DNA from: Asterionellopsis glacialis
Lineage: Eukaryota; Bacillariophyta; Plagiogrammaphyceae; Rhaphoneidales; Asterionellopsidaceae
Direction of reading: 5' to 3'
Length of the DNA stretch: 29,016 bases
Assembly: GCA_014885115.2 (NCBI GenBank)
Contig: WKLE02002844.1
Location: 1 to 29,016 of the forward strand
Shown here piece after piece: positions 7,931-25,701 of the stretch. Below the pieces are notes generated by a model that did no database searches, was not told the DNA's origin, and saw only the letters and a program-made list of their open reading frames with translations. Position 1 is the first letter of the stretch. Each line of letters opens with the position of its first letter. A program made the translations under genes and the position numbers.

Positions 7931-10900
7931 ATGACATTACGATCAAAAGAAGAACGACGACGGAAAAAAGAAGAAAAACGTTTATTGTTACTTCAACAAG
8001 AACAAGAAAAACAACAATTATTATTTACAGCTTGTTCTTCTTTGTCTACCAAAACACCATCAACAACATTGCATCATCCACAACAACAGCAACAAGAACA
8101 AAAAGAAGAACAAAATAAGAATAATGATACATTTCCAACATTACGAATCACACAAACAAAGCAACAAGAACAAAATGATAAAAGTTCATCATCATTAGCA
8201 TCATCGACATTGCCATCCACTGCCACAAGAATAAGAATACGAAAACGACAAGAATATTCTACAAGAGCAATAGCACCAACATCAACTATAAAATCTTCAC
8301 CATCCTTAAAGAAGAAAGTTCAATATCGAAAACAACAAGAACAACATGAACAACACCAATCATCATTTTCCTCACCTTTTGCATCTCGTACGAAAACTAG
8401 AACAAAAAGTACACCTGGAAGTACTACTAGTAGTGATGGTGAGGACACTGGCAGCGAAAATGATGATGATGATGATGAGACGAATGTTAATGGTACTAAA
8501 CACCACAAATCATTACACCCTCCACAAACACAACAACCACATGATACAAGAACGACAAGAACAAAACCAGTAACCAAGTCTTCTTCTTTCTCTACAAACA
8601 AGAATAATACAAGAAGGAGTGAGACTGACAGCCAACGGAACTCGAAAAGTTGGACAACCAACAAGACAAAGAAACAATCATCTACAAAACAACAACAACA
8701 ATCATCGTCATCATCTTCTTCATCATCATCGCCCAACCCTATAGAAAAGAGAATATCAAACTCAGCTACTACCAGATTATCATCATCTTCGTCCTCCTCC
8801 TCATTGGAATCCCTTACTGCAAACAAATCTGCAACAGCAGCAGCTGATACCAATTCTTCTCCTTCTTCTTCTGCTACAAGTTGTGATACTAAAAAACAAA
8901 CACAAACAACAACAAGAATAGCAAAAATTAATACTCCAATATTTTTTGCACCCATGAATAGTGATAGTGATGATGACAGTGATGGTGATGAAGATTTACT
9001 TGCATACACAAAACTCGTTGAAGAAAAAAAACGTGCTGCTGCTTCAAAGTCAACAACAACGACGACGACGACAAAGGCTAATCGCAATGGTAGTAGTGGT
9101 ACTGCAAGTGATACGAGTTGCACTTCTAATCATAATTTGAATACTTCTCCTCCTTTGTCACCAACGAAACGTAAAACAGCACCAACAAGAATTTCTTTCA
9201 AATCTCATCCTTCAAAATCCAAACAACCACAAAGTAATAATGACGACAACAACAACAACGACGACGACAATGATGTTGATGATAGTAATAATAAACTTCC
9301 ACCAACACGACAACGACAACAAAGACGACGATGTCATAATCCTATTGCACTTGAAAAACAAGATAAAGAAGACTTTGCATACCTACAAACAATAACAACA
9401 ACAATAACGTCACCCGACCAACGACAACAACAACAACAACAACAAACAACCAAGAAGAATCGGTCATTTCCAAAGGTGGACGATGATTTCATGTCATCCG
9501 ATAGTAGTATAGAGGAACCATCATCCAAGAAAACAGCTTCCAAGAATAAGACAAATAAGGAAACGAAACAACAACGGGAAAAACGAAAACAAAAGACGAA
9601 GCCTACGTCTTTTTCCAATTCGGAAGATGACAGTCATAATGAACATGACAGTATTGTAAACAGTAGTGATGATGATAATGATGATACTACCAAACACCGC
9701 CACAAACTACTTCCACCGTCAAAGCAGAAACAACAAAGAAAATCATCATCTATACTGTCATCCAAGCGGAAAACAAAGAATCGAACAAATAATAGTAATA
9801 GAGGTGGTGGTGTCAACGTTGACTGTGACTATGATTACAAGGACAATGACGATAACTATGATACCTTGAAGGCAAAACTAAAACCTGAATTTGCCAATCC
9901 CAAATTAGGACCACCTTCCGACCTTGTACCTTTTGTGCTAAACAATCCTAATGCCACCAGTAATGGTGGCGATGCAACAACAAAAGAGAAAAAGGACATT
10001 GTTTCGTCCTTCACATCATGTTATCAAGTACCTGCATCTATGAATCGGTATTTACGATCGTTCCAACGTGAGGGCATACAATTTATGTTTAATGGTGTAT
10101 CAAAACATCAAGGTTTAATTTTAGGACATGATATGGGTATGGGTAAAACTATACAAGTTATATGCTTACTTGCAGCCTTATTAGGTAAAACGGGTACCGC
10201 ATTAGATCTTCACCACTTGCAAACCTTACATCGAAAAATCATTACAAAACAAGAAGAGGAACGAAAAGCATTGCAACAAACATGGTTACATGGAACTACA
10301 CAGACAACAAAAACAAAAACGACAGAGAACATTGGCAATAGTGACCAACCGCAGCCACACGAAGAACAACAAGCAAAGGAACGACGTCGTCAACAACATT
10401 CCCCTATACTTATTATAGTACCTAAGAGTGTGATTGACAATTGGAAGACAGAATTATCAACATGGGGACACTTTGCTGTGTCCATTTATCAAGATAAGAA
10501 TCGTGCGGAAGCATTAGAACGTATCAAACAGGGTATGGATGAAATCTTAATTTGTGGTAAACCAATCTTTGCCAAGCAAGATGATTTTCAAGATCTCTTG
10601 TTAAAGAACAGCCTTGATGGTGTAAAATGGAAATTGGTGATTGTAGATGAATTTCACGAATATAAGAATTCAACTGTAAAAGGATATGTTAATTTAAAAA
10701 AATTAAAAGACGAACATCAATGTACCATCATTGGTTTGACAGGCACCGTCATGCCGAATGAACACCGCGAATTATACAATCTGATTAATCTGGTTCAACC
10801 GAATCATTTAGGGACATGGAAAATGTTTGAAGAACGTGTATCTAGACCCTTAAAATACGGACGGTACGTTGAGGTTTGTGAGAAACTCTTCTTATTGATG

Positions 10901-13105
10901 TTCTTGCTCTCCTATTGCATTGAGAGTTGCGTCTAGTTGAAAGAACAAACAACGCACATACGATATTACTTTACTTTGCTCAACTCTGTTTTTTTTTTTC
11001 GTGTGTGTCGTAGAGCTATTGATGCCAAGGATGATCTTCTTAGTAAAAGTACACAATGCCAGAGTGAATTTGCCGAGTTGTTACGACCTGTATTTTTAGA
11101 GCGTAAGAAAGAATCTGTTCAAGAACTTCAAGAGGTGCTTCCCACGAAGGATGAAAAGGTTGTATTTTGTGAATTGTCACCGTTACAAAAACGTGTGTAC
11201 GAACACATATTGTCTTTGCCTGATTATCAGCTTCTAAAGAAGGCCAATGGACCCTGTGATTGTGGAGTAAATCAAAAGTTCTTCACTGAATACAAACTTA
11301 TGAAAACCAAAAAAGAACGTGCTGAATATACACGGAAAAACAAGGACAATTTGGTATCGCGAAAGAATTGTTGTTATCCTATTCCCTTGAATCCTAAGCG
11401 TTTAAAAGTTGGGCAACCGCGAATAGACCCAAAGGCAGTTCTTTGGATCGGACAGCACAAGGATAACATGCCATGTTCCGAAGATAAGGGTTCCAGTTGT
11501 CCTTTTTGTATTTTGTTGCCAGCGCTTCAAAAACTCTATAAAGTCTGTTCTCACATAGCATTACTTCAAGTGGATAAAGATCCTCAACATCTCAAAGAGG
11601 GGTCCAAGTTACGGCAAGAGAAGCAAAAAGTTCTTGACTTTGCGAAAGTTGCACTACCACCTAATGTCTTACAATACCTTCCTGGTAAATCCTACGTAAG
11701 ACAGGATGGAATTATGGACAATCATATGCTCTTGTCTGGAAAGATGGCAGCAGTAGACGAACTACTACGGGAATGTAGCAGTCGTGGTGATCGAGTTTTA
11801 TTGTTCTCGTATTCAACTACCACCTTGGATCTCATTGAACACTACGTGAAGTCCAAGGGAATCTCTTTTGTTCGTCTGGATGGGTCCACTACGACCAAAT
11901 CTCGGCAGAATTTGATTGATAAATTCCAAAACGATGAAACTATATTACTCTTCTTGATATCTACGTTGGCAGGAGGACTTGGTTTGAACCTTACCAGTGC
12001 AAATGTCGTCATTGTGTTTGATGTTAATTGGAATCCCAGTTACGATGAGCAGGCACAAGACAGAGCCTATAGGATCGGACAGAATAGGGATGTACAAGTA
12101 ATTCGTCTCGTCGCACGTGGAACAATAGAGGAACTCAAATACATTCGTCAATTATACAAAGTACAGTTGAAACAGGAAACTCTCGCTAATGCAGCCAAGT
12201 CAGCCCCGCGTCTCTTTCGTGGAGTTGCTGGAGACAATGAAAGGAAGGGGGAACTATTCGGTTCGGAGAACTTGCTGAAATTTAAGGACGGCAGTTTTAT
12301 GAGCGATATGTGGAAGTCTGCTAAGAGGCAAAACCCGACTAAAAAAATGGGCAATCTAGAGGTACAGCAGACAGCTGATCTAAGCAAGACGATATCAAAC
12401 ATGAGTATTCAAGAAATTGATAAGATTGCTGAAGACACAGAAGAGGAGCAGTCGAATGATTATGTTGTTCGTAAGCCCATAGTTAGTAAGGAGCATGCTG
12501 TCAACCATGAAGACTTTTTAAGGGGAGACCGCGGAGACGCGGCCTTGCATCCCGGCGACGAGGGTTATGATGAGGTATTAGGTGGATATAGCCAGGTTGT
12601 TCAAAGTGCTTATGAACACGGTGGCATATGCTGTACAAGCCTGGAAGAAGATGAAGAAACAGTAGATGTCATACATGATCGCTCAGCTCGTTTGAACTCT
12701 ATTCCTGAAGAAAACGAGCCAAAGATGGTAGAAGATGCTCCTCCTATGATTGTTAATATGGCGGAATTAGGTAATCAGACAGCCAATGGCAATAACGATG
12801 GCAATGCATACTCACAGGAAACGGTTCCAATCTACAAAGAATTGAGATCGGCAAAAGAACGATCCCGTGATCTGACAGTCAAAGAATCTGCCCTCCTGCA
12901 AGTGTCGAAAGGAGAAAATGTCAACACCACAACTAACAGAAAAGGCATACCTAAACCTGCTCAAACAAAAAAATCTGCGGGAAAGAAAAGACCACGGATT
13001 TGTCAGCGTGCCGATGTGGATGTTCTAATTATGGGGGTCCCTCAGAAAATACTAAAAAAGAAAAAAACCAGTTCACTGTTCACTGTCCGGGATATTTTGG
13101 GTTAA
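7931..13105 (+). CDS. ERCC6L2: ERCC6L2/CHR9-like Snf2-family DNA-dependent ATPase
   Basis: This is a nuclear chromatin/DNA-repair translocase. Two exons, 7931-10863 and 11014-13105 (intron in phase 2), give 1674 residues. Residues 1 to about 690 are low complexity (Gln, Ser, Thr, Lys runs, acidic patches). The Snf2 core follows: motif I GHDMGMGKT (732-740, Lys739), motif II as DEFH (906-909), a GLTGT motif III, then the second lobe with STLAGGLGLN (1294-1303) and QAQDRAYRIGQ (1324-1334, arginine fingers 1328/1331). The ERCC6L2 assignment rests on a Cys-rich insert (CDC 1059-1061, CC 1097-1098, then CPFC), which I recall in plant CHR9 and partly in human ERCC6L2, and on the ELFG block after the helicase (1391-1394). 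The family acts in DNA-break repair and genome stability. A CSB-type ATPase is the main alternative, but the insert and ELFG argue against it. Confidence 0.88.
7980..9830 (+). repeat. Trinucleotide-rich low-complexity coding tract
   Basis: The 5' end of the Snf2 gene is built of CAA, TCA/TCT, ACA and GAT/GAC runs that encode Gln, Ser, Thr and Asp. Clear blocks are the CAA run near 9425-9450 (seven Gln), the serine run near 8700-8730, and Asp codons near 8460-8480. This tract also produces long spurious open frames on the other strand (for example 8320-9123). Confidence 0.75.
10864..11013 (+). other. Intron of the Snf2 gene (150 bp)
   Basis: It starts GTACGT and ends after a pyrimidine tract (a run of T at about 10988-10999) with GTCGTAG. 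It interrupts an Arg codon (CG/A); removal joins KYG-R-AIDAKDD without a stop. Read through, the frame ends at TAG 10934-10936. The position falls between the two helicase lobes. Confidence 0.88.
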
Positions 13106-13278: not shown

Positions 13279-15667
13279 ATGTCAGATCTATTTGTAGGCT
13301 TTGTTGGTCTACTTGGTCTTTACGACGATCGCCCTAACAAACCCGTGGACAATGGAGAAAGTATTGCCGCACCATCAAGGATCGCATGGTGGTTCTCCTT
13401 GACTGTCAAAATTATCTTCTTTGCCACAGATTTTGTCAGCACAGCTCTTGACTGGCAAATTGTTTTCTCCCTTGCTAGAGGCAAATTCAAACTTGTATGG
13501 GCGGACGAAAGCGAGCAAGCGAACAGCACCGTCTCGCTTTGGTTCACCGTCGTCTTTGTTGTAATCATGATTCTCTCGCACTTAATTTTTTTGCGAGGAA
13601 AATGGTTCTATTTGCACAATAAAGATTGGGCCGCCTTCTCCATGACTGAAGTCGTTCTCTACGCAATTGAAGATGTAGCGGCAATTGAACTTTACATATT
13701 AGTTGAGGGTTTCTACAGTAATGATCGAGTTGTAGACAGGCTCAATGTTTTGCTCAGCAACTTCACTGGCTATATAGTGGTAGGAATTCTAACTTATCGC
13801 ATGTTTCAAAGTCCTCGTCCTCCCTGTGGAGCCTATATGTTTCTTTTCCTAACTTTGCTACTAGTCATACTTGTATCTTTGGCATCATATATTTCACTCT
13901 TTGCGGGTGGTTTTGAGGACGCTATCGACAAAAATGAATTCAATGGAGCATTGCTGTATCCAATCGCCGCTGGATCTCTGGGAGGATTGATCTTCTTATA
14001 TATATTGATTCTAGTCTGTAAATGGGATCAATGCCTCAGGTGGACTAGGACTCGAGCAGAGCAGGAAGATACCGAGGAACAAATTGACGACGAGGAAGGG
14101 GACTTGGCGATCTTGGCGAATGAGACCTCAATCTTGGAGAACAACGAACAAATTGAGCACAACAAGACCGCATTTATTATAATTTGGACTTTCGTTTTTA
14201 TTGGTTCAATTTTCTTAGGTCAATCCTTAGCCGATGAATCAAAAGAAGTAGGAAACATTGAAAATTTTCGGTAAGTTTTGTGAGAAAAGACATTTCGAGA
14301 CAGTGCTGATGCCTTGCTGTCATTGTCCTAATTTCTCGAGTCTTTTTCTTTTTGGCAGCTGGTCTCGTTCGTTTGACCAGACCAGGTTAGTCGGTAATAC
14401 AGATGGTATGAACATTTTCTTTGGACACAACGTCGATTGGGAAGATGTTGGGGATATCAACGGCGTCGGTTCAAGCATTACGATTGGTGCTATTTCGGAA
14501 CGCATTAGAAACGAAACCTACATGTACACCTCTATTTCTCGACTCCGAAGCCAGACAAGTTTCTGGGAAGAGCCTAGCTTTCCTTTAGTTTCTGTTCCAT
14601 CCTATGTTGTTGCAGCAAGTTTAAAAGGTAGAGTCAACGGAGGTTTTGTGACAAACACCACTGGCACGTATGGCTGGGTCTCTCTCTATTCGGACTATCG
14701 TGGTCCGTTGGTCCCAGATGATGGTCAGCAGTATCATGTCAGTGTCACTGTCGGAGGAGACAGTATTAAAAGATTTAAAACTCGTTTCGGTGCAGACACG
14801 GTTGTGGCAGATGTGAATTCAGTTCGTCGTGTTGGTGGTTTCCCTTATGCTGACAAATCTCGGGGATTTGTGCAAGCAGCCGGACCATGGCAGGTAGGTC
14901 GATGCACCTATGCTAGTTCCGACTGCATATGTCAGGGGGGAAGTAACGATTGCACTGTTACTAATTTTGTCGAAGAACTTGGGAATCCAATTTTGGGAAG
15001 CTTTCCGGGTGAAGAGTTCGGACGCCAACTTTCAATGGCTGAACTGAACAGTTCTGTTCTTGCAATTGCTTCTACTCGTCGACCTGAGACCAAAAACTCG
15101 GGTTCAGTAACAATTATGCACATGCCTTTTGCAACCAAGGAAGGGCAGACGCTAGCCTGGTCAAAAATGACTAGGAAACCACTCAGCAGTAACGAGGTAG
15201 AAGATCAATTTGCCCACAGTATAGCGATGAGTGGTGATGGTCAACGTCTCCTCGTTGGTGCACCAAAGGCAAAAGGAGGGGGAGCTGCATATGTATTTGA
15301 CTACAATGGTATTGACTGGTCACTACACACCAAGTTGACACCAAAGACAGGGAATGAAACCAGAGAGGTACAGTTCTATGGCTATGCAGTGTCAATCGAC
15401 GCTACCGGAAAACGTATTGCTATCGCTGCTGAAACTGACGACTCGTCCTACGTGTACACGTACGAAAATAGCGACAAGCAAACGACGACGTGGATAACGA
15501 TTGGTGGTGTCATTGGAGGTGGCCCTGCAGGTAACTATGCGGCAGGGTATGAGAATTCTCTTAGCCTAAATTACAAAGGCAACTTTCTTGCATTTGGAGA
15601 CATTGGAGTTGACGATTCGGCAGGTCGTGGCCGTGTGCGAATCTACAAATTTACAGAGCAGTTTTAA
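13279..15667 (+). CDS. Multi-pass membrane protein with C-terminal FG-GAP-like domain
   Basis: Two exons (13279-14270, 14359-15667) join in phase 2 to give 766 residues. Residues about 35-320 hold six or seven hydrophobic helices, including an acidic helix segment (VVLYAIEDVAAIELYIL) and a helix closing the region just before an NIENF segment. A charged loop (EQEDTEEQIDDEEGD) lies before the last helix. The remaining about 430 residues are soluble and end in FG-GAP-like blades: FGRQLSMAEL, FAHSIAMSGDGQRLLVGAP, FYGYAVSIDATGKRIAIAAE and a final LAFGD-x-RVRIYKF strand. FG-GAP repeats form beta-propellers as in integrin alpha chains and usually bind ligands outside the cell, so a surface receptor or adhesion role is possible (inference). 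I do not recognise the membrane domain. The start ATG follows AATTGAACC. It converges on the CHAT gene. Confidence 0.8.
14271..14358 (+). other. Intron of the membrane/FG-GAP gene (88 bp)
   Basis: The donor is GTAAGT and the acceptor TTTTTGGCAG after a pyrimidine tract. The split codon CG/C gives Arg; the joined protein reads NIENF-R-WSRSFDQ. Without removal the first frame stops at 14272-14274, three bases into the intron. Confidence 0.9.
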
Positions 15668-15710: not shown

Positions 15711-18457
15711 TCAAACATTCAACTCTTTGGCAATGCTATCCAAAATTTCACACTCCAATTTACTGTAGGCGCATATTGTTATTTGTTTCAACCCTTTGTA
15801 GCCTTTGCATTGCGACAGCTCCTCTACAGCTATTCGTAAGGGATGTGCAGGATTCCCCCCAGATCTGATTCCAGAAGAGATAAGGCTGAAACCCACTGGT
15901 AAGATAAGAAAGCAAAATTAGATATAAATGATTGAGAGAGTCCACTTTATAGTCGGTTCACGATCCTGCACACTTATACACAAGTTTTACCTGCTTCTAG
16001 CCCATTCTCCTCAGCTCGCTTGAGACACGACCGGTATGCACAACGAAGTAAAATATCTTTTTTGTGTGTTGGACGTTTTTGCAGGAATGACATATAATTG
16101 TATGACGGTCCAGCTGTGAAAATCACGTAAGGCGCTTTAAGCCTGCCATAAGTTTTGGATTCTGAGCCTACAATCTGAGCATCTCCAGTATCACACCGCA
16201 TAACCCCCCAAGGTGTTGTAGACCCATGAATCTTTAATCTATCTATTTCTAAGCTATTACCACCTGCAGTCGCCACTGCCCAGTCAACCCCTCCAGGACG
16301 CGGGATGCACCCTTCATTGGTTGCACAGACTATCCCATACTTCTTGGACGATCTGTAAGAATAGTTGACCACAGAAGAACGTTTTTGTATAACAAACGAA
16401 AATGTCCGCTTAGTTCTAGGCCTAGCAACATTAATTTCTTCTTCCAGCCCTTCATTCATATATAAAATCTCAGAAGCTTGAACCTGATAAGATGGATTCA
16501 CCAATCGCTGTCGTAATTCGTTGTTTTCTTTTCTCAAAATTTCATTTTCTTTTCGTAAAAGCAAGATTTCTCTCTCTTTTGTAACTGCCTTTGTTTCGTC
16601 CACAAAATTTGCTACCGTTTTCTCAACTTTACTGCTGAACGTGATTTCTCTCCCTAAACTTTCCTGCACGTGCTCCAACTGTTTATGAATTTTAGAAGCT
16701 TCGGCGTACTTCCCTTTCGAATAGACTTTGTCAAAAGCCTCCTGTAGTTGCCTTTCTTTGACATGGAAGTCAGTTTGGATTGGAAATTGGTCCAAAAGGA
16801 AGTGGAGCTCTTCTATGATTTCTCTGTAATCCTTTGCCTTTTGGGGGTAACTTTTGGGATTGGCAACAATATCATTAAATTCTTGTTGTTTATGCCTGAT
16901 CTCAATTTCAATAGCCCGCCGTGAGTCGATGCGTGTTTCAAATTCTGGTTTTTTCCCAATATGGATAAGTGCCTCAAACTCGTGCTTTTGTATGCGTATG
17001 GCGTTATCGTAGATTTTTGAAGGATTGCCTTCCCCAATAATGCGAAAGATGGTTTTACATCTATTTGACATGAATTGATGGACTTCTGTTTCCTGTTTTT
17101 CGCCCTCTGGAACAAGGAGTTTGGAAAGCTCCGAGGCAGATTTCACGATTGTAAAATCTGTTGCCAATTCGGGACGTGTTGAAAAGAATATTATGCCAAA
17201 CAGCTTAACGGATCGCTCAACATCCAAAGGAGGAAGAACAACACGGACGTGGTTTGACAGTTTCTTAATATTGAGCTCCTCAGTATATGGGCAGACAACC
17301 AGGACACGATTGTACTCTGTGGCAGTAAAAAGATTACAAATGAATGCGCCAAGCTTTATCATCATATTTGACTTTAGCTCTCTTGCATCAATTACAAGTA
17401 ATGCTCTTTCTTCCTTCAGTATTTCGGATACACTTGCACAAAATCTTTGAAAAACTAAATCAGAACTCTGGAGAACTGAGAAGAGTTTGTGGAGCTCACC
17501 GAACGGGGTTCCACACTGGTCGTGATTCGGTTTCTCTTCAAGCCAAAGTATTGGTTTTATAAGGAACTGCCGAGGCCTTTCATAGATGTATTTGCACACA
17601 GCTCTGGCAAGACTTGATTTTCCTATCCCCTTTGGTCCGGTAATTTGAACAAGCCGAGCTGTCTTAATTTTGAGTGCTTCATGAATTGCCAATTCTCTCC
17701 CGAATAAAAAGTCTGGCTGTGTAGGGAAAATAGAGATATTATTCGTCTCTATCTGAGTCGCAGTTGTGTACCCTTTTGGAAAAACTTGGATGTCATGGTA
17801 ATTCTTATAGGACCGTTCTTTCTCTTTACTATCGGGCAGTAAAATGAACTTTTCTAACTCCGCTTTACTGACCATCGAAGATACGACTTTACTCGCCGTA
17901 CGAAAGGACTTGATCAAACTATGCCCACAGACAACACCGCGGTACAAAGACCGAGTGAATTCAATTGCAGCCAAATTGTTCAGCCTCTCCCCATTCTTGC
18001 AGCAAATTACATGTGGAATTCCAGCTGCAAGAAGTTCTCGTCCCATACTTTCAGAGTCACACATGGACAAAAATACAACCTTGACATTATTGTTGTGCGC
18101 TTCAAACAGCTGTTGAATTTCTCCCTGAACACGTCCTAGGACATGGACACCACCCTGTCCATCTTCAAAAAATGCATATGGCTGGGGGCTTGATGCTGCA
18201 TGTCCCGAAAAGTGCAGGATTGAACTACGACCATGGGCAAGAACAGCAGTCACATCATCTGTCGTACAACCAGAAAATTCTACATCAATCTCATTCCCTG
18301 TCTGATTTTTAGCTTCTTTCAGTGTTTCGTCCACGATAGTCTTCTCCTTTTCCAAATCAAGTGTGCGGATTGGTACAAGCTTTCCTGTTTTATCTGTTCC
18401 AGCCAAGGGTTTGGCATGAAAGACAGTGATCCGTCCATACCTTTTCGAATCACCCAT
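15711..18457 (-). CDS. CHAT protease / STAND-like NTPase / macro domain fusion
   Basis: Two exons, 18457-15991 and 15895-15711, joined in phase 1, give 883 residues. Residues 1-195: CHAT (caspase/separase-like peptidase) with both catalytic positions, His86 in LHFSGHA and Cys133 in VVFLSMCDSE, plus the GIPHVI turn. Residues about 250-490: NTPase with the STAND lead-in LFGRE (251-255), Walker A GPKGIGKS (274-281), Walker B LLVID (353-357), a PPLDVERSVKLF helix and a GNP motif near 477-479, resembling NB-ARC. Residues about 505-655: helical, with a coiled coil from about 625 to 652. Residues about 692-883: macro domain, with ATN (Asn714), PGGVD (Asp725), YVIFTAGP (777-784) and SLISSGIRSGG (826-836). 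Macro domains bind or remove ADP-ribose. No WD40, LRR or TPR sensor is seen. The likely job is a ligand-triggered protease switch in defence or stress death (inference). Confidence 0.87.
15896..15990 (-). other. Intron of the CHAT-macro gene (95 bp)
   Basis: On the minus strand the donor is CAG/GTAAAA and the acceptor TTATCTTACCAG after a T-rich tract. Splicing joins a split codon (G/TG, Val) and yields NGLEA-VGFSLISSG, exactly where a macro domain passes from its Glu-Asn-Gly helix end into the next strand. Retention ends the protein after five more residues, within the macro fold. Confidence 0.88.
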
Positions 18458-22477: not shown

Positions 22478-23563
22478 TTACCATCCTTCTATAGCAACAC
22501 GAATACCTAGCATAATACCTGTTCCTAGAGTGAACGATGCAAAATGTATTGAATTTCGTTTGACACCATGAAAGTGTTTTACTTCGGGGATTAAATCACT
22601 ACCACCAATATATAAAAAGTTACCCGCAGCAAAGGGAATCATAAATGCAACATCGATACTTTTAGATGCTCCGTAGGCAATTAGGCCACCCAAGGGGAAT
22701 GTCAATGCCGATGAAAAATTCATAAGTAATGCTTTAGGTCTTGACCAACCTCCGTGTACCAAGACTGCAAAATCACCTAATTCTTGTGGTACCTCATGAG
22801 CTGCAGCTGCTAACCATGCCGATACGCCCAATTCAACACTATCTACAAAACTAGCACCCACAAACATGCCTCCAAGGAAGTTATGGACTGCATCGGCAAC
22901 AATAATCAAGTATACCAAAGGGTGTTTTTTTTCACTGCTGGGTTGTGGTTGCGCTTGCACGTCATTAGGATTGGATGTTGTTGAGGACTTTTCATCCATG
23001 TGATTTCCACTAGTACTGGAGTACTCGTGTTCCTCTGCAGAAATAACAGCCAACTCGATATCTTTTTCTGCCTCTTTGTGGTCTATTATCTGAGCACCAC
23101 TATTTGAACATGCTGTGCTCTCGTCGTCGTTGTTACCTTCAATTTGTAATGGAAATCTACAGTCCAATCCACATAAATGAGTTTCAGATTCAGATGGCTG
23201 TTGGCGATGATTATGATTTGACATTTGAGGAAAATGATGTTCATGCTGTTCACCTCGAAAGGGACTGCAGGAATGTGAATGTGTATGACTATGATGCCAA
23301 TTCAAGAATTCTTCCAATGCATAGAATACCATAAATCCTCCACATAACCAACAATAAAGTTCCGTCTTGTTTCCCATTTTTTCTACAGCAGCAGGTATCA
23401 TGTGGAACATGGCACCACCAATAAGTGAACCAGCTGAAAATGCAACTAGGGGGAGGATCAATTTGTTCCATGTCTCTTGTCGCAGGAAGATAGTGAGACT
23501 TCCTACAAGTGCTATACAACTCATCAAAAAGCCAAAGATTATTATCCATAATAAGGTAGACAT
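22478..23563 (-). CDS. ZIP-family metal (Zn/Fe) transporter
   Basis: An integral membrane protein of 361 residues that brings divalent metal toward the cytosol. Three N-terminal helices (about 4-26, 35-58, 69-88) come before a long hydrophilic loop (about 89-213) that is His-rich (WHHSHTHSHS at 89-98, GEQHEHH at 104-110, NHNH at 116-119), a usual metal-sensing or binding loop. Helix 4 carries DAVHNFLGG (Asp224, His227, Asn228) and helix 5 HEVPQELGD (256-264), which together form the binuclear metal centre. Three further helices follow, the last reaching the end. This is the LIV-1-like branch by the HExP-x-ELGD motif, with Gln at the second His position, a variant I recall in many ZIPs. No intron. 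The first ATG is the start. Substrate is uncertain. Confidence 0.93.
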   Translation of the reverse strand: MSTLLWIIIFGFLMSCIALVGSLTIFLRQETWNKLILPLVAFSAGSLIGGAMFHMIPAAVEKMGNKTELYCWLCGGFMVFYALEEFLNWHHSHTHSHSCSPFRGEQHEHHFPQMSNHNHRQQPSESETHLCGLDCRFPLQIEGNNDDESTACSNSGAQIIDHKEAEKDIELAVISAEEHEYSSTSGNHMDEKSSTTSNPNDVQAQPQPSSEKKHPLVYLIIVADAVHNFLGGMFVGASFVDSVELGVSAWLAAAAHEVPQELGDFAVLVHGGWSRPKALLMNFSSALTFPLGGLIAYGASKSIDVAFMIPFAAGNFLYIGGSDLIPEVKHFHGVKRNSIHFASFTLGTGIMLGIRVAIEGW

Positions 23564-24154: not shown

Positions 24155-25701
24155 TTACTGAATACTCTGAAGGAATGCAAGACAATTTAACAATCCTTTA
24201 TCAGCAGCTGATGATGATGATGATGATGTAGTGGTAGGAGGTGATGTGTTGTTGTATCTTGATTGTTGGAGTTGTTCAAGCAATTGAAGTTGTTGCTGCT
24301 GTTGTCTCTGTTGTTGAAGGTCTTGCACTTGTACTTGTTGTTGACGATCTTGCTGCTGATGGTGATTCAAGGCAGACGGGTAAGCTACATTTCCAGCTGC
24401 TGATTGACTTAGTAACATATTGGTCAATATAGACTGTGTATGGCTGCTGTTGCTGTTTCCACCATTCCTGGCGGCAGCAGCAAGTGCTGCAGACAACGCA
24501 TTGTTGGTCGACAAGGCTGCAGATAAAGTTGCTGCAACCTCCTTACGACGTTCTTCTTGTTGATGTTGCTGGACAGCTCTTAGTAAAGCTAGTGAATTTG
24601 TTGGGCTGTTGTTAACGGTGCTACAGCTTGCAGTATTAGTCCTGTTGTGGTCAGAAGAGTTTACACTACTCTGGTGATTCGTTGAACAAGACTGTTGTAA
24701 AAGCATAAGCATGGAGAGATCTGGGAGAGACGTTGCCTTGAGTGCTTCTGTAGGACTGGGCGAACTGCGGAAAGCACCTGTGCTAGTAGCGTTAGATGTG
24801 TTGAACATTCCTGCAGCACTACTGGCATTAGTGTAGTCGATAACAGATGGTAATGTGACCACACGTAGGAGACTGTTGGCAGAATTGTGGCTCGCAGTAC
24901 TATTTGCATTTGCACTTGTAGCAAGACCGTTATCATGATGAAGGTTGAAACTGCTACCAGTGCTACTAGCATTACTCGCAATCCTTGGGAATGGTAATGA
25001 TAGTGTACTCCTTGAAGAACGAAGTGCTGTTGCTCTACGGAAACCAGCATCACTGCTCATGTGATCAAAATTGGTAGTACCTCGTTTAAATTCAGAATTA
25101 CCAAAGACCATCCATTTATCATCTTCAATTTCACAACTTGCACTTTTGGATGTGCTACTGTTACTGCTGGTGCTTGTAGTAAGATTCTCCGAAGAAGAAC
25201 TTGTAGTAGATGAAGTGCTTTTGGTTGTAGAGCCTGAAGCATGAACATCACGATCGATACGTCCTGCAAAGACACGACGTTTCGTTTGATGAAAACCCCA
25301 GCGATACAAATTTCGGACAAAGTTTTTAAATTTACTTTTTCCTTCGAAGAAGTCCACCAATAAAGTTTTTTGAAATTCGTCAATATCACGAATAATGAAG
25401 GAGTTTCCATCGGGCAACCATGCGATTACAGACGGTTTGCCGGTTCTGGCCTCTTCTTCTGTTGCATAGTTTAACATTCTCATGAGCTGCACAGACAATA
25501 TTGGTGACAAAGAAACGCGATTAAGCTGAGTTAGTTAAGAACCAGGAAGATTCGGGAGATGGAATGGAGTCTTTTTACATGGAGTTTTCAGTCTCTACGG
25601 AACAAGCTCAAAAGCATTTGATCGCTGTAATAACATAACATTTATGTGCAACTTACCCTCTCTGGAAGCTTCTCTCTTGTGTAAGTGCGTGCGGCGACCA
25701 T
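24155..25701 (-). CDS. HSF-type transcription factor
   Basis: Two exons, 25701-25657 and 25486-24155 (phase 0), give 458 residues. The first exon supplies the initiating ATG and residues 1-15 (ending EKLPER), completing the start of the DNA-binding domain, which continues LMRMLNYATEEE. The domain (about 12-95) shows AWLPDGNSFIIRDIDEFQ and the recognition helix KFKNFVRNLYRWGFHQ, which correspond to the SFxRQLNxYGF signature of heat-shock factors. HSFs bind GAA/TTC repeats in the nucleus and control stress and other programmes; this family is much expanded in diatoms. The rest is Ser/Thr/Asn-rich with Ala-rich and Gln-rich tracts (QQQ runs about residues 395-435) and no clear HR-A/B trimerisation repeat, so the oligomer state is uncertain. 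Confidence 0.87.
25487..25656 (-). other. Intron of the HSF gene (170 bp)
   Basis: On the minus strand the donor is GAGAGG/GTAAGT and the acceptor ATTGTCTGTGCAG. Splicing in phase 0 joins LPER to LMRML. The frame before the acceptor opens only at a TTG, so the intron explains where the ATG comes from. Confidence 0.85.

Follow-up and report, generated by a model that had tools for sequence, protein, structure and literature searches.

The gene described here raises the question of what a protein might do that carries a caspase-like protease at one end and a macro domain, a module of the ADP-ribose-binding type, at the other. It lies on the minus strand at 15711–18457 of a 29,016-nucleotide stretch of the diatom Asterionellopsis glacialis genome (WKLE02002844.1, contig label C930; the whole of this stretch is called the window below), and its predicted product joins a CHAT protease domain, a P-loop NTPase, a helical linker with a coiled coil and a C-terminal macro domain. 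The macro domain is probably the sensor of a CHAT protease built like a nucleotide-binding, leucine-rich-repeat receptor (NLR). The reading favoured here, with a probability of about 0.42, is that of a single-chain, NLR-like proteolytic switch.

Within the predicted gene model it is confirmed that the four parts are joined in one spliced gene. Exon 1 (15991–18457, minus strand, as are all features of this gene) is open from the ATG at 18457 and encodes residues 1–822 together with the first base of codon 823; a single frame of 822 codons thus runs from the CHAT domain through most of the macro domain. A phase-1 intron of 95 bases (15896–15990, GT...CAG) separates it from exon 2 (15711–15895, stop codon included), which encodes the rest of the macro domain, from VGFSLISSGIRSGG... 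onwards. The spliced product has exactly 883 residues, and addition of exon 2 lifts the score of the Pfam Macro profile from 29.7 to 44.3 bits.

A paralogue on another contig of the same assembly (C179) encodes 874 residues, counted from the first ATG, in the same domain order, and its intron of 107 bases interrupts the frame at the same phase-1 site. An in-frame MG...GRITV in the paralogue matches the start context of the window gene, with a further ATG upstream in the paralogue frame, and the two second exons are 63% identical. Overall identity is 44% over 837 aligned residues, distributed as 47% in the CHAT domain, 46% in the NTPase, 25% in the helical linker and 58% in the macro domain. 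Synonymous change between the two copies is saturated (the Nei–Gojobori synonymous rate, dS, is undefined or about 3 or more); the nonsynonymous rate, dN, reaches 0.82 in the linker, against 0.36–0.44 in the CHAT, NTPase and macro domains, and the difference is 0.63 at third codon positions and 0.29 at second. Judged by these values, both genes look old and retained.

The same four-part order is found in a distant relative, P0001, a 1427-residue protein from a Joint Genome Institute metagenome (2 contigs) in which leucine-rich repeats (LRRs) stand in front of the CHAT, NTPase, helical and macro parts. It scores 34.5 bits with CHAT, 50.7 with LRR_6 and 17.6 with Macro, the last being below the cut-off of 22. 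Its macro part nevertheless aligns with the two diatom macro domains at scores of 148 and 183, where the maximum from 200 shuffles each was 52, and a search with P0001 recovers the two diatom genes and, in the window gene, its macro part as well (E 2.6e-5). The macro part of P0001 is therefore homologous to the diatom ones. That separate CHAT–NTPase and macro genes merely look joined, through the gene model or the assembly, is highly improbable and already close to refuted, given the 822-codon frame, the recurrence of the domain order and intron site on another contig and the recurrence of the order in a metagenome-derived sequence. Both the single 883-residue gene proposed in the first-pass annotation and its domain order, which had been put forward for a search of other sequences, are borne out by these comparisons.

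The CHAT domain occupies 17777–18445 (residues about 5–227) and is assigned to the caspase-like fold of the CHAT/separase type. The catalytic dyad is intact, with His86 encoded at 18200–18202 and Cys133 at 18059–18061; both are invariant in the six members of an alignment of CHAT proteins (A1), His86 also in all 14 rows of a second alignment (A2), while P0001 has Tyr at the Cys position. The VIA-align rows span only about residues 3–230. The Pfam CHAT profile was matched at E 0.01 in 14/14 rows of A2 and 6/6 members of A1, and gives 22.3 bits on the window protein against a cut-off of 24. Hence the domain predicted at first pass is matched and its dyad holds, but the Pfam threshold is not reached. 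When four other diatom genes bearing the dyad were scanned singly, C1350, C1358 and C853 scored over the cut-off and C1082 under it.

The P-loop NTPase follows at 16943–17710 (residues about 250–505) and has both a Walker A motif (GPKGIGKSS, residues 274–282, 17612–17638) and a Walker B motif (LLVIDARE, residues 353–360, 17378–17401). AAA_16 (E 3e-5) and nSTAND1 (E 3e-4; 21.0 bits, cut-off 27.1) match it at scores under their cut-offs. A GEGNP segment (residues 475–479, 17021–17035), spotted by eye, is a candidate for the G-x-P motif of the helical subdomain of STAND ATPases; its Gly477 is common to all five members that reach this column. Of the 14 A2 rows, mostly oomycete-type relatives, 10 matched NACHT at E 0.01, and the window protein did not; P0005, scanned singly, exceeded the NACHT cut-off. 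On this sequence evidence 'STAND-like' is the furthest label that the NTPase allows. Of the STAND/NB-ARC features initially ascribed to it, the P-loop and the STAND-like character stand, and a bona fide NB-ARC domain is unsupported, no STAND family having passed its cut-off in a Pfam profile search of the window protein. A weak PADLOC match to mad8 over the P-loop (21.4 bits) was taken as a generic P-loop match.

The helical region at 16493–16942 (residues 506–655) is common to the window protein, the paralogue and P0001. The coiled coil proposed earlier is supported, and the region includes a long helix at residues 609–653; a first model, built from exon 1, has block-mean predicted local distance difference test (pLDDT) values of 72–94 for residues 511–600. 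Foldseek matches of that first model to sugar kinases (E 3e-4 to 6e-4) had root-mean-square deviations over 10 and were taken as chance. A by-eye resemblance of the linker to UVR-type hairpins is backed by no Pfam family and is not claimed.

The macro domain, with its N-terminal strands, spans 15711–16408 (residues about 684–883) and is split by the intron. The Pfam Macro match (44.3 bits, E 2e-11, cut-off 22) establishes the macro fold at the C-terminus, in the sensor position, just as the first-pass annotation had it. A profile made from the three macro-bearing members was compared with solved structures, giving 36 matched sequences at E 0.01, of which MacroD1 (2x47, E 2e-9), MacroD2 and bacterial MacroD-type chains rank first. 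In the exon-1-only model the domain is not resolved (block means 25–45).

The loops of the domain bear directly on its function. Asn714 (16316–16318), which corresponds to the final Asn of the canonical N-A-A-N motif (C-A-T-N in this protein), and Asp725 (16283–16285) line up with the MacroD-loop Asn and Asp, both of which are catalytic in MacroD enzymes. Asn714 is kept in 3/3 sequences; at the Asp725 position the paralogue has Asn and P0001 has Gly in the column. Trp, rather than Gly, follows Asp725, and loop 1 has one residue more than that of the aligned MacroD-type chain. Both diatom copies retain the ISSG/ISAG loop and the CxTG motif, whereas P0001 has lost loop 1 and the loop-2 glycine but still has a recognisable domain. 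The site of the adenine-binding Asp of macrodomains (residues about 694–698) could not be aligned with confidence. Hydrolysis by the window macro domain is possible on this pattern; it is not a property common to all three macro proteins, because the Asp gives way to Asn in the paralogue and P0001 has lost the loop.

Whether this protein stands alone was examined in the assembly (40.3 Mb, 1503 contigs), which holds at least seven CHAT loci: those on C930 and C179 and five more, on C1350, C1082, C1358, C853 and C296, of which C296 is not part of A1. These numbers are minima, because only the best candidates are scored in the searches. C1350 has a long low-complexity, charged tail with helical parts by eye. 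C1082 (2451–4739, plus strand) encodes a CHAT–NTPase protein with a hydrophobic stretch at its end, seen by eye, that could be a membrane anchor. C1358 (836–4705, plus strand) combines CHAT with a degenerate NTPase that has lost Walker A; its C-terminal part is very long, and a P-loop-like SPAGTGK lies close to where this first frame ends. The second frame on C1358 (4653–6839, plus strand) had no Pfam match at E 0.01. On C853 (4919–7999, minus strand) LRRs precede a CHAT domain with an intact dyad (LRR_1 22.3 bits, over cut-off), and the Walker A Lys is replaced by Cys. C296 (1937–6271, plus strand) has a 1445-codon frame with a WD40 array between two CHAT-like copies, the catalytic Cys being lost by eye. 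The dyad is kept in 6/7 loci and the Walker A Lys in 4/6 aligned ones, which makes the protease the more constant part. Macro was found in 2/7 CHAT loci; among the best candidates scored, its sole other match in the assembly is a 208-codon frame on C209.

A search of a set of 5.8 billion proteins with the six-member alignment returned 14 relatives among 7991 scored, the last of which (P0014) is without a CHAT domain. P0002–P0011 have the order FHA–CHAT–NACHT and form a stramenopile CHAT–STAND family with a phosphopeptide-type module in front; four are named oomycetes (Pythium, Nothophytophthora). A query of the same set with the whole 883-residue protein drew nothing at E 0.001 from the 7992 candidates scored, and one with the macro region alone drew nothing from 464. 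As candidates are picked by shared words, the missing close orthologues are weak evidence. In viral contigs the macro-alignment pattern gave 37 pattern matches with none confirmed, and in prokaryotic contigs the CHAT–NTPase pattern gave 16, likewise with none confirmed. A profile comparison of A1 with A2 was not used, being circular with the window protein in both.

One core with interchangeable sensor modules resembles NLR repertoires, by analogy rather than as a test. The window protein has the N-terminal effector and central NTPase of an NLR on one chain, and no repeat family passed its cut-off in it, the C-terminal repeats of an NLR being replaced by the macro domain. The NLR comparison drawn in the first-pass annotation accordingly gains weight from the loci with swapped accessory modules and fails at the C-terminal repeats.

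The conserved order points to an alarm protein whose proteolytic activity could be triggered by an ADP-ribose signal. Beyond this we infer ligand binding, an on/off cycle, oligomerisation and proteolysis, and a function in defence, stress responses or cell death. The resting protein would be kept inactive until the macrodomain binds an ADP-ribose-containing ligand, be it a mono-ADP-ribosylated protein, unbound ADP-ribose or one of its derivatives. A change of state in the P-loop NTPase and the helical, coiled-coil linker would then gather several copies, so that the N-terminal CHAT proteases, activated by proximity, might cut a cellular substrate.

Several observations weigh against this proposal. 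The Pfam CHAT score falls 1.7 bits short in the window protein. P0001 has lost the CHAT Cys to Tyr and has a degenerate macro loop, and therefore not every relative can work as such a switch. The Walker A Lys is missing in 2/6 aligned members, so that the NTPase is dispensable in some, and where the window protein has E360 as the second acid of Walker B, the other five have N, K, K, H and H. A winged-helix part was not identified in the window protein, and the model of the NTPase is of low confidence: a separate model of residues 236–605 had a mean pLDDT of 54 and nothing was drawn from it, a Foldseek search with it giving no match at E 0.001. Moreover, trees of rows trimmed to CHAT and NTPase do not establish that the macro fusion arose once, nor do they speak decisively against it. 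In a 17-row tree (without C296, P0006, P0012 and P0014) the three macro-bearing rows needed 2 changes and did not fall on one side of a branch. The other trees were also without P0004, P0009, P0011 and P0013; with 12 rows (C1358 left out, fewer outgroup rows) the macro-bearing rows lay on one side with support 71/68, and with 13 rows (C1358 kept) support for the grouping was 30/0.

Other roles for the macro domain have to be weighed against that of a ligand sensor. It might have lost nucleotide binding and act as a protein-recognition or decoy module in an NLR-like receptor, for example by baiting a factor with which a parasite or virus attacks ADP-ribose signalling. Plant NLRs are known to contain integrated decoys, all three macro sequences deviate from the MacroD pattern in loop 1, P0001 is without loop 1 and the loop-2 glycine, and other members carry LRR or WD40 modules on the same core. 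Between the paralogues, however, no part is better conserved than the macro domain, which would not be expected of a recognition surface that evolves fast, and the retained ISSG/ISAG loop and CxTG motif also speak against a decoy, which is judged unlikely. An eraser, stripping ADP-ribose from partners or from the protein itself and so resetting the protease switch or setting its threshold, would suit a domain of the MacroD type, whose members are hydrolases and whose closest PDB matches are MacroD1, MacroD2 and MacroD-type bacterial chains, and both Asn714 and Asp725 are present in the window protein. This role is distinctly unlikely, given the Trp after Asp725, the longer loop 1 and the loss of the Asp elsewhere: a role common to all three macro proteins cannot need an Asp that is absent in the paralogue and in P0001. 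The paralogue pair, with Asp725 in one copy and Asn in the other, makes the choice between sensor and eraser directly testable. The protein might instead serve stress rather than immunity, as a PARP-coupled protease acting in stress or DNA damage, whose separase-like CHAT domain would be recruited by ADP-ribosylated targets and cut them. This is quite improbable, as the P-loop switch and the swapped-sensor repertoire would better fit a surveillance system; a link to a repair gene was not seen, though none was searched for.

The proteolytic switch preferred here has partial counterparts among known systems. The prokaryotic SAVED-CHAT protease (PDB 8tl0) likewise couples a CHAT protease to a sensor for a nucleotide messenger, and its title describes an activated filament; the sensor is SAVED rather than macro, no P-loop NTPase is named, and the sensor comes first, because the aligned CHAT part lies at residues 302–461 of 496. 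The SAVED domains are described as stacked (PMC11417357), and the protease activity of TPR-CHAT in Craspase is reported to be triggered by non-self RNA (PMC9729208). Fungal NLR-type sensors likewise have CHAT as the signalling part of a multidomain receptor; the paper that describes them, and also a TPR-CHAT protease that activates a gasdermin, gives their repeats as WD40, ANK or TPR and has 0 occurrences of 'macro domain' (PMC12881547). Our searches for gasdermin and PARG families gave no match, but in both cases the positive control was also without signal.

The stramenopile FHA–CHAT–NACHT proteins share a homologous CHAT–NTPase core in the same order as the window protein, and differ in the FHA domain in front (9/14 A2 rows) and in the helical linker and macro domain, which are not in the alignment. 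P0001 differs by its LRRs. MacroD-type macrodomains, which are not known to be fused to a protease or NTPase, are the closest solved macro domains by sequence profile (MacroD1, MacroD2, bacterial 5fud and 5l9k), and the aligned chain has an intact GGGGVDG loop, unlike the window protein. The C-terminal part of PRK13341 (NCBIfam NF009880), an AAA family ATPase and bacterial AAA+ protein of the RarA/MgsA type, matches the window macro domain at E 6e-6; it likewise has a P-loop ATPase and a macro-like part in one chain, and is without the protease. Macro domains are also named as modules of bacterial conflict systems (PMC7159879 and PMC8195603).

CHAT proteases in NLR-like receptors were already known, and what appears to be new here is the macrodomain, as probable sensor, on such a protease. 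The first-pass remark that the architecture is undescribed in a diatom is consistent with the open-access literature searched, where neither CHAT–NTPase–macro nor macro with CHAT in one eukaryotic chain was found; longer listings were covered in part, by title and the start of the abstract, and subscription journals and preprints lay outside the scope. The protein is a concrete candidate for direct coupling of an ADP-ribose signal to proteolysis. Diatoms undergo virus- and stress-induced death, and the intracellular receptors that set it off are poorly known. A bolder proposal, which we hold to be doubtful, is that diatoms carry an ADP-ribose-gated protease, a CHAT–STAND family with a macrodomain in place of the repeat sensor, that triggers caspase-like proteolysis and cell death. 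If so, it would respond to signals that derive from NAD+ or consist in ADP-ribosylation, with PARPs, TIRs or the ADP-ribosyltransferase of an invader as their source, and the Asp/Asn split would mean that one copy is a sensor that resets itself while the other only reads the signal.

Two PARP-like catalytic-domain loci (three matches; C213:9662–10330 and C5:14743–15321, both on the minus strand) and two TIR_2 loci are present in the host. Sequenced diatoms were thought to lack PARP until one turned up in Thalassiosira oceanica (PMC4245714). STAND proteins by themselves have precedents in diatoms, because NB-ARC and NACHT proteins of Thalassiosira pseudonana were already tracked in a stress proteome (PMC5599023). 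NB-ARC passes its cut-off in several long frames of the present assembly (1195–2578 codons; C480, C1323, C1386, C699 and C965), and the diatom may, on these profile matches, have a separate NB-ARC repertoire. The assembly also contains a silicon transporter (E 7e-82), in keeping with a diatom host.

Within the window, the CHAT–macro gene is flanked by a convergent gene at 13279–15667 (plus strand; two frames, membrane and FG-GAP repeat, FG-GAP_2 38.9 bits in the second), whose stop lies about 44 bases from its own. The remaining neighbours have ordinary Pfam assignments: an SNF2-type helicase (7931–10936, plus strand), a ZIP zinc transporter (22478–23563, minus strand) and a heat-shock-factor gene (24155–25483, minus strand).
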